Assembly (NCBI GenBank): GCA_024408855.1
Contig: JAKSUQ010000015.1
Location: 1 to 46,559 of the forward strand
Origin: a bacterium
GTDB lineage: Bacteria; Cyanobacteriota; Vampirovibrionia; Gastranaerophilales; Gastranaerophilaceae
DNA length: 46,559 nt
Direction: 5' to 3'
Each line of letters begins with the position of its first letter. The first letter of the stretch is position 1. Below the pieces are notes generated by a model. It saw nothing but the letters and a program-made list of their open reading frames with translations, was not told the DNA's origin and searched no databases. Positions 31,984 to 34,407 of this stretch are shown here, piece after piece. The translations under genes were made by a program, and so were the position numbers.

Positions 31984-34407
31984 TTATAAGTTTACATTAA
32001 TATCAGCTTCCGGTTCAAGTTCTTTTTTTAGTTTAGCAATAAATTCCCTTGCCTCATCAGAAGCATTCGCCCAATTTACAGAGACCAATCCTCTTTGAAC
32101 CCACAACAATTCTTTATAGAAATCATATTGTGAATTTGCAGCATCTTCCCTTGCTATTCTAACAGCATTCATTGCATCCAAAACTTGCGGAATAGTAACT
32201 TTACCCATCAAATATTTTTCTTTAACTAATCTGTAATTTTCTTCTTCGGCACTCAATGCTCTGTATGCACGTTCAATGCACAAATATTTTGCAATAGCTC
32301 TGTTTACTGTGGTTCTTATACTAAATTCTATTTCAGTATTAACCTCCTCCAAATATGTATTTAATTCATTTAACTCAGCTTTACAACGTGCCATTTCTGC
32401 TATTTTAGTTCCGCCTTCGATAGGTTTCCATTGAGCTACAATCATAAACCTTGTTGAATCTTTATCCAATCCCAAATACGGAGATCCGCCCAACGCTATT
32501 GCAGCAGGAGTAGCCATTTGATAATGTCCAACCTGTTCATACGGTAAATTTCTGTCAAACTGTTTAGAATGTTCCAATGTTAACTTCGCATTAGGTAAAA
32601 AGAACTTTTGACCATAATTTGCCATTTCTGCTTTTTTCATAGCAATAGCAGCTTTTAGCTTTGTTGTTTCAGGAGATACATAAATCGCTTCCTGAACAAG
32701 CATTTGCGTAAATTTTTCCATTTTGTCCGGTGTTCTTATGTGATCTAAAAGATTTATATCCGAAAGGAAGAATGCCGAATCTGTAACTTTTATCGGTGCA
32801 AGCTCAAAATCAGAGGTCTGATCGGAATTTAATAATTGATTTATATGAATTTTTACGTTATCAAATTCAGATCTTGCAAGAAGCAGATTTTTTTCGGCAT
32901 GATTAACTTCGCCTGCCCAACGCAAAACTTCTTCATCTCCGCACTTACCGGAAAGTTTCCTTATTTTTGCCATTGCATAGCAGTTTTTAACATCATCCAC
33001 ATACTGCTCTTGATATTTAATACTATTACTCATCATTATATAATCGACGTATAATTGTGCAATCTGCAAGCCCATACTTTGTTCGGCTAACACTTTTTCA
33101 GCCTTGTCAAATTTCAATTTTTTATGCTTAACCAAAATGTTTGTAACCAAATCTGGAGAATAAAGAACTTGATCTATTCCGTAGGTAAAAACCCCGACTC
33201 TTGTCGGCACATCAGAATATGACTTAGCATATTCCGAATTATAAGTTTGATGACCTAAGTCAACTCTTAATGTCGGTAAATAATGTAAATAGGCAGAAAC
33301 TAATGCACGTCTTGCAGCATCAATAAGATATTTTTTCCTTTGTACAGTTAAATTCCTTTCCGCAAAAGCATCAAATATATAGCCCAAATTTCTCACTTCA
33401 AGTTTTTTATTTGAAATAACTTCTACACTTTTTAACAATCTGACATGCGGAGTATACCCTATTAATTCCGCAGTATCCTTATTAAAAAACAAAACATTAT
33501 CATCAACAAAAGTAACCGGAGTACTTTTAACCGAACTTCCCTTTAGTACATTTTTTATATTAAAAGAAACCGTTTCAGCCAGTTTTTTATCTAAATCTCT
33601 CGTTGAAGTTCCTAACATTGCACCCAAGACAACATCTTCTTTTCCCATTGAAGAAAAGGACGGAAGTTTCTTTTGTGCTAAATAATCATATAAATTTTTT
33701 CTTTGTTCAGTCGATAAGTTATAAACCTGCGTAACATATACAGATTTCACATCATTAGGCATTGTTTTTAATGATTTTTCGATATCACTTCCTACCGGTA
33801 TAATCACAAAGTCTACATTACACCCTTTTTCTTTAAACCCTTTCCTTGCCAATTCATTCCAATTACTTTTGGAATTGTAAATTCTCTCATTAAGAAGAAT
33901 TGCAGTTTTTCCTAAATTTGGAACCAATCTCTGAAAAACTACAAAGTCATTAACAGATTGTTGAACAGGATTAAAAAATTTATCACTAAATCCTCTTATT
34001 GCATATTCATCAACAGTAATTACATTCTTTGAGTGATTATTTTTCTTTAAATATTCACCTGACCAATAACCAAAACAAACAATCATGCCAGCTCTTGATT
34101 TTAATGCCTTTTGAGCGGCAATGATTGAGCTTTGTTCATCCCAATTACCCTTAAATATCAAATCCTCGGAGAAAACCGCCTGATAATCAGGCAAAAGAGA
34201 TTTTGTAATTATCGGTTTGTAGGTTTTCAAAACCTCACCTGTTTTTTCGGCATTACTGTCAAATACAAAAGCTATTTCTAATTTATGAGCATTCTGAATT
34301 GCTTTTTTAGCTTGTACCGCAGGCACATCCTGAATTGCATATGCATTCATAAAAGCTCCGAATGATAATAACAAAGTTATAATCCCCAATAGTATAATTT
34401 TTTTCAT
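31984..34407 (-). CDS. TolC-family outer membrane protein fused to an ABC substrate-binding-like domain
   Basis: 807 aa from ATG 34407. Residues 1-24 are a signal peptide (MKKIILLGIITLLLSFGAF, cleavage after AYA). Residues 35-310 look like a periplasmic binding fold of the ABC_sub_bind type (KLEIAFVFDSNAEKTG, then alternating beta/alpha units to FNIKNVLKG). Residues 370-790 form two TolC/OEP repeats with long coiled coils and typical ends (LNEL, YRLVKEKYLMGKVTIPQVLD). TolC proteins are outer-membrane exit ducts. A start at 34455 is in frame but lies at the predicted transcription start and precedes the signal peptide. It is the first gene before the acyl-CoA synthetase. The partner transporter is not in the window. 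Confidence 0.83.
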   Translation of the reverse strand: MKKIILLGIITLLLSFGAFMNAYAIQDVPAVQAKKAIQNAHKLEIAFVFDSNAEKTGEVLKTYKPIITKSLLPDYQAVFSEDLIFKGNWDEQSSIIAAQKALKSRAGMIVCFGYWSGEYLKKNNHSKNVITVDEYAIRGFSDKFFNPVQQSVNDFVVFQRLVPNLGKTAILLNERIYNSKSNWNELARKGFKEKGCNVDFVIIPVGSDIEKSLKTMPNDVKSVYVTQVYNLSTEQRKNLYDYLAQKKLPSFSSMGKEDVVLGAMLGTSTRDLDKKLAETVSFNIKNVLKGSSVKSTPVTFVDDNVLFFNKDTAELIGYTPHVRLLKSVEVISNKKLEVRNLGYIFDAFAERNLTVQRKKYLIDAARRALVSAYLHYLPTLRVDLGHQTYNSEYAKSYSDVPTRVGVFTYGIDQVLYSPDLVTNILVKHKKLKFDKAEKVLAEQSMGLQIAQLYVDYIMMSNSIKYQEQYVDDVKNCYAMAKIRKLSGKCGDEEVLRWAGEVNHAEKNLLLARSEFDNVKIHINQLLNSDQTSDFELAPIKVTDSAFFLSDINLLDHIRTPDKMEKFTQMLVQEAIYVSPETTKLKAAIAMKKAEMANYGQKFFLPNAKLTLEHSKQFDRNLPYEQVGHYQMATPAAIALGGSPYLGLDKDSTRFMIVAQWKPIEGGTKIAEMARCKAELNELNTYLEEVNTEIEFSIRTTVNRAIAKYLCIERAYRALSAEEENYRLVKEKYLMGKVTIPQVLDAMNAVRIAREDAANSQYDFYKELLWVQRGLVSVNWANASDEAREFIAKLKKELEPEADINVNL

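Follow-up and report, generated by a model that had tools for sequence, protein, structure and literature searches.

A conserved fusion of a PF04392-type binding domain to a TolC-type outer-membrane duct in Gastranaerophilales

Outer membrane factors of the TolC type are generally treated as passive ducts. In cyanobacteria, pumps that use such ducts have been reported to export free fatty acids (PMC6329066, PMC11594277). The PF04392 proteins of known function, TrpX and CD0873, are components of importers (PMC9382623, PMC6816091), and in TrpX the residues that hold amino acids are T108, A127, T129, D152, and N233 (S. suis TrpX numbering; PMC9382623). No description of an architecture that combines PF04392 with TolC was found in the literature searched. 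Here, we describe such a protein from a 46,559-nucleotide contig of a Gastranaerophilaceae genome (JAKSUQ010000015.1, assembly GCA_024408855.1; hereafter the window), which represents a previously undescribed variant of the outer membrane factor family. The relevant features are as follows.

34462..34488, minus strand: promoter-like TTGACA-15 nt-TATAAT upstream of the fusion gene (sequence reading)
31984..34407, minus strand: fusion gene encoding a signal peptide, a PF04392 binding domain, and a TolC/OEP duct (ORF, translation, Pfam, AlphaFold model, Foldseek)
34330..34407, minus strand: predicted Sec signal peptide, residues about 1-26, no lipobox (translation; helix 2-18 in the model)
33412..34299, minus strand: type-I periplasmic binding-protein domain, residues 37-332, with the PF04392 match at 146-326 (Pfam, models)
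33373..33429, minus strand: short linker between the binding domain and the first TolC helix, residues about 327-345 (AlphaFold model)
32083..33387, minus strand: TolC duct, residues about 341-775, with two OEP repeats, four barrel strands, and long periplasmic helices (Pfam, model, Foldseek)
30003..31964, minus strand: downstream neighbor, an AMP-binding enzyme of the long-chain acyl-CoA/ACP synthetase type, 653 aa (Pfam, comparison)

The fusion gene is read on the minus strand from an ATG at 34407 to a stop that ends at 31984 and encodes 807 amino acids. Judged by eye from the sequence, its N-terminus is a signal peptide of the ordinary type (MKKIILLGIITLLLSFGAFMNAYA), and the same reading revealed no lipobox cysteine in it. 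The promoter-like element was not listed by the promoter scan, its spacer being one base below the scanner's range. Pfam identified both component families above their curated cut-offs: OEP (PF02321) in two stretches (E = 3.6e-20; 73 bits against a cut-off of 22; best stretch at 347-527) and ABC_sub_bind (PF04392) at 146-326 (E = 1.1e-9; 38.4 bits against a cut-off of 25.9), the latter covering the C-terminal part of the binding domain. A sequence-only reading of this DNA had described an exported 807-aa protein that joins a binding-protein fold at residues 35-310 to a complete TolC duct and had named these two families for a domain search; Pfam, AlphaFold, and Foldseek all bear this description out.

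An AlphaFold model of the full fusion, built as a monomer from 35 homologs (mean pLDDT 77), shows the alternating strand/helix fold of a binding protein at about 41-316, followed by a complete TolC protomer with barrel strands at 379-388, 403-416, 606-620, and 650-659 and the long TolC helices at 418-485 and 665-733. In Foldseek searches, the model matched TolC at E = 3e-16 and the binding proteins CD0873, 3LKV, and 3LFT at E = 4e-7 to 2e-6, while the N-terminal domain modeled alone matched 3LFT at E = 2e-11. The isolated domain had its best full-length matches in the structures of the aromatic amino-acid binding proteins 3LFT, CD0873 (6HNI), and 3LKV, with Z about 15-16 versus <9 for unrelated periplasmic-binding folds. 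Superposition on the solved structures gave an rmsd of 8-13 with poor placement of the lobes relative to each other, and these high values probably reflect uncertain lobe placement in the model. A search of PDB sequences with the domain profile (hmmsearch) matched no binding protein, and the relation of the domain to solved structures therefore rests on fold comparison. When aligned directly with hhalign, the Gastranaerophilales domain matched stand-alone TrpX-like proteins only weakly (probability 6%, C-terminal part only); the profile link to these proteins runs via fusions that are linked to RND pump genes (E = 1.8e-25 and 8.9e-11).

Screening of 286 Gastranaerophilales genomes identified a full-length, one-frame fusion in 79 of them and split or truncated copies in 4 more. 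Within the phylum, as sampled, the only full-length matches came from the family of the window and one other family of Gastranaerophilales, and other TolC proteins matched the duct part only; relatives in other Gastranaerophilales families share 18-25% identity. Titles among the best 80 matches in GTDB genomes are mostly those of Candidatus Gastranaerophilales, Melainabacteria, or Cyanobacteria bacteria, many from gut or rumen. Every PF04392 match found in the family of the window falls within the fusion, and the genome of the window encodes a single PF04392 domain, that of the fusion, along with four further TolC proteins. Outside the phylum, plasmid records yielded one full-length homolog in Sulfuricurvum (Campylobacterota) and shortened versions in Cetobacterium (Fusobacteriota); since only plasmid records were drawn on, this spread is a lower bound. 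In L047, L048, L054, and other members of their genus, the signal peptide is separated from the binding domain by 50-100 additional residues, which are rich in Ala, Lys, and Gln.

These observations leave a sequencing or assembly error that joined two genes, which the sequence-only reading had raised against itself, with a vanishingly small probability: 79 genomes carry the fusion in one frame, and the architecture recurs in another phylum. The fusion is thus a real, conserved, and recurrent joining of a PF04392 domain and a TolC duct in one protein. That reading had also called such a duct unexpected, which holds insofar as no earlier description was found; however, the architecture is recurrent and occurs in ordinary pump operons of relatives.

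In four distant Gastranaerophilales, the fusion gene is followed by genes for an HlyD-type adaptor and an AcrB-type RND protein (Pfam was run on one of the four loci, with which the other three cluster). In Sulfuricurvum, the operon order is TetR, fusion, HlyD adaptor, RbbA-type ABC protein, and ABC-2 permease. In Cetobacterium, adaptor and RND genes lie behind a TolC duct with a shorter N-terminal extension, which matches the RND-linked binding domains at the profile level (E = 1.7e-9, 267 columns). On two Cetobacterium plasmids (L171:5254-7434 and L172:5359-7530), this extension comprises 270 aa, precedes adaptor and RND genes in the same way, and has no Pfam match. The presence of the fusion in pump operons of distant relatives suggests that it serves tripartite exporters as their outer-membrane component, to which a ligand-binding domain has been added. 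Collectively, our findings suggest that the fusion is the outer-membrane duct of a tripartite exporter (TolC/OMF) with an N-terminal domain of the TrpX/CD0873 fold that binds a ligand other than an amino acid, a reading to which we assign a probability of about 0.6.

No adaptor or pump gene lies beside the fusion in the window, and none is linked to it in Gastranaerophilaceae; the pump partner in the genome of the window would be encoded elsewhere, like that of E. coli TolC. Adaptors of their own accompany the RND and type I secretion genes of this genome, as well as two more duct genes. A YbhGFSR-like ABC exporter on contig C36 of the same genome (L225:6734-10788; a dual ABC ATPase and two ABC-2 permeases) was considered as a candidate because of the Sulfuricurvum operon and because it has no linked duct in this genome. 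It was rejected as a dedicated partner: it is present in 29 of the 83 genomes with a fusion, compared with 102 of all 286 genomes (p = 0.89), and in most relatives checked it has a duct gene of its own and a complete adaptor, of which the C36 locus retains the C-terminal part only.

We envisage that the duct part of the fusion would form the usual trimer. The TolC chain begins, in solved structures, on the outer face of the helical barrel at the equatorial domain, and three binding domains would therefore ring the duct in the periplasm, hanging outside the tube near the equatorial belt. There, they would take up a small ligand other than an amino acid and would either pass it to the adaptor and inner-membrane pump or tune the docking of these components.

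The nature of this ligand was evaluated by mapping the five amino-acid contacts of TrpX onto the fusion through two chained profile alignments. T108, A127, T129, D152, and N233 correspond to Y114, D133, Y135, a site that is non-acidic or deleted, and N230, such that only the Asn is kept and four of the five contacts are replaced. This makes an amino acid an unlikely ligand, as judged from sequence. Among 35 homologs, however, Y114 and D133 are nearly invariant and Y135 and N230 are invariant, and the mean conservation of the binding domain (0.78) approaches that of the duct helices (0.82-0.84), which suggests a different, conserved ligand rather than decay. The fusion in the window and its sister L120, which together sit on a long branch, carry FVFDSNAEKT where the family has the near-invariant loop motif FVFDGPSDKN (window 33985-34270; P0001 residues about 47-140), a variant that may perhaps indicate another ligand specificity.

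Genes that surround the fusion offer a lead on the ligand. The synthetase gene in the window starts 19 bases past the fusion stop and may share its transcript. In the family of the window, the fusion is solitary and its immediate neighbors are variable: the most common among 141 are AMP-binding enzymes (12), acyl-ACP thioesterases (7), and regulators of the MarR (5) and TetR (4) types, with all remaining families at three or fewer each. MarR and TetR neighbors are usual for efflux operons. When genes at least three positions from the fusion in the same loci served as the baseline, AMP-binding genes were about 12-fold enriched at positions 1-2 (17/293 versus 3/580; p = 2.4e-6) and thioesterases about 18-fold (9 versus 1; p = 3.5e-4), both by Fisher tests that ignore relatedness. 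An AMP-binding gene lies within about 1 kb (1.1 kb) of 17 of the 87 fusions, and this label requires 12 changes on the tree, which indicates that the adjacency is recurrent but intermittent. Three types of AMP-ligase adjoin fusions, namely the 653-aa type of the window, the usual 560-aa type, and a 1171-aa MFS-acyltransferase-ligase (L070).

The sequence-only reading had asked whether the fusion is always next to an acyl-CoA synthetase and had guessed at a lipid or fatty acid ligand from the one in the window. An obligate partnership is ruled out by the 17 of 87 adjacencies, by the closest sister, L120, which has no AMP-binding gene beside its fusion, and by the window synthetase itself, another paralog that is about 27% identical to the usual AMP-ligase neighbors. 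The tie to this particular synthetase therefore fails, but the enrichment of AMP-ligase and thioesterase genes makes a fatty-acid connection more than a guess. Such a link is plausible, and fatty acids or related lipids stand out as the most plausible class of ligand, as a lead only.

Several other neighbors were observed. In L055, MlaE, MlaF, and MlaD-type lipid transport genes and lpxK lie beside the fusion on the opposite strand (8524-12546), and genes that cluster with the ABC and permease genes of this locus are also near the fusion in L044 and L106. A gene of the Omp85/BamA type directly adjoins the fusion in two distant relatives (L053:8977-10914, assigned by a Pfam match, and L120:5975-7864, assigned by sequence clustering). 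Upstream of the fusion in L102, four related genes of about 140-150 aa follow in a row on its strand. In the window, two long ORFs (28552-29985 and 26434-28377) lie beside the synthetase; the former (477 aa) matched no Pfam family above cut-off.

A more specific version of the exporter reading, compatible with it, has the domain binding free fatty acids or lysolipids within the envelope and the duct exporting excess fatty acids, with cytoplasmic turnover run by the adjoining acyl-ACP thioesterase and acyl-CoA/ACP synthetase genes. We regard this joint proposal as tentative. It agrees with the enrichments above, with an adjacency that recurs across the tree and involves three ligase types, and with fatty acid export by related pumps, both in cyanobacteria and in Neisseria, where FarAB-MtrE exports long-chain fatty acids (PMC8277102). 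However, 70 of the 87 fusions have no AMP-ligase within 1.1 kb, the strands and order of the genes vary such that they often do not form one operon, and solved binding proteins of the TrpX/CD0873 type hold aromatic amino acids rather than lipids (PMC6816091). Far less probable is that the system works inward, in which case a ligand entering via the duct would be captured by the binding domain and received by an ABC importer. Although the characterized PF04392 proteins belong to importers, the distant fusions sit with export pumps, and no TrpY-type permease (PF02653) was found in the genome of the window, which is 97% complete. Together with the absence of any other PF04392 protein from this genome, the missing permease suggests that the domain does not serve a TrpXYZ importer, and a role with a TrpY permease was rejected.

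The exporter reading can be extended to a duct that senses or loads its own cargo, in which the domain would take up a periplasmic, lipid-like ligand and binding would be coupled to pump docking or duct opening in at least two phyla. This is a possibility that we hold with reserve, and we know of no such control step in tripartite exporters. The main rival to a ligand-binding function is a purely structural role, in which the domain no longer binds a ligand and instead serves as a collar for positioning the duct, docking the adaptor, or holding peptidoglycan. The loss of the amino-acid contacts of the parent family and the shortened Cetobacterium extensions without a Pfam match are consistent with a collar, and in E. 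coli, the periplasmic surface of TolC carries a lipoprotein, YbjP, as a separate partner (PMC13082787); a similar part may fall to lipidation or to YbjP for other TolC proteins. The replaced cleft residues, nearly invariant or invariant, nevertheless resemble a new pocket rather than decay, and the whole domain is almost as conserved as the duct. We consider a collar somewhat doubtful for these reasons. A conserved duct that carries its own binding domain provides a natural test of whether the exit end of a pump selects or answers to its substrate, and the fusion offers a way to approach export in Gastranaerophilales, relatives of cyanobacteria that live in the gut and are known mainly from assembled genomes.

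Compared with known systems, the fusion resembles TolC and other outer membrane factors (PF02321, TIGR01844; 1EK9) in that each protomer has two OEP repeats, a set of four barrel strands, and long helices in the periplasm, and it matches this family across the duct at a Foldseek E of about 1e-15. It differs from TolC in about 300 extra N-terminal residues that form the binding-protein domain, and it scores 40.5 bits against the TIGR01844 cut-off of 225. With TrpX, CD0873, and VC_1101 (PF04392; 3LFT, 6HNI, 3LKV) it shares a common fold, yet its domain is not a free or lipid-anchored importer component and lacks most of their amino-acid contacts. The architecture is shared by the SBP-TolC fusion of Sulfuricurvum kujiense plasmid pSULKU01 (WP_041667226.1), in which both Pfam families are above cut-off and which is 24% identical to the RND-linked Gastranaerophilales fusion L057; unlike the fusion in the window, it lies in a complete TetR-fusion-HlyD-RbbA-ABC2 operon. 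Bucl8 of Burkholderia is likewise an outer membrane factor that bears an additional functional domain and adjoins efflux genes (PMC8277102), but its extension is C-terminal, collagen-like, and binds fibrinogen, whereas that of the fusion is N-terminal, periplasmic, and of a binding-protein fold. CusF, which acts with CusCBA, is a periplasmic binding component that hands its substrate to a tripartite pump (PMC8277102). However, CusF is a separate metal chaperone that acts through the adaptor, whereas the binding domain of the fusion belongs to the duct itself.
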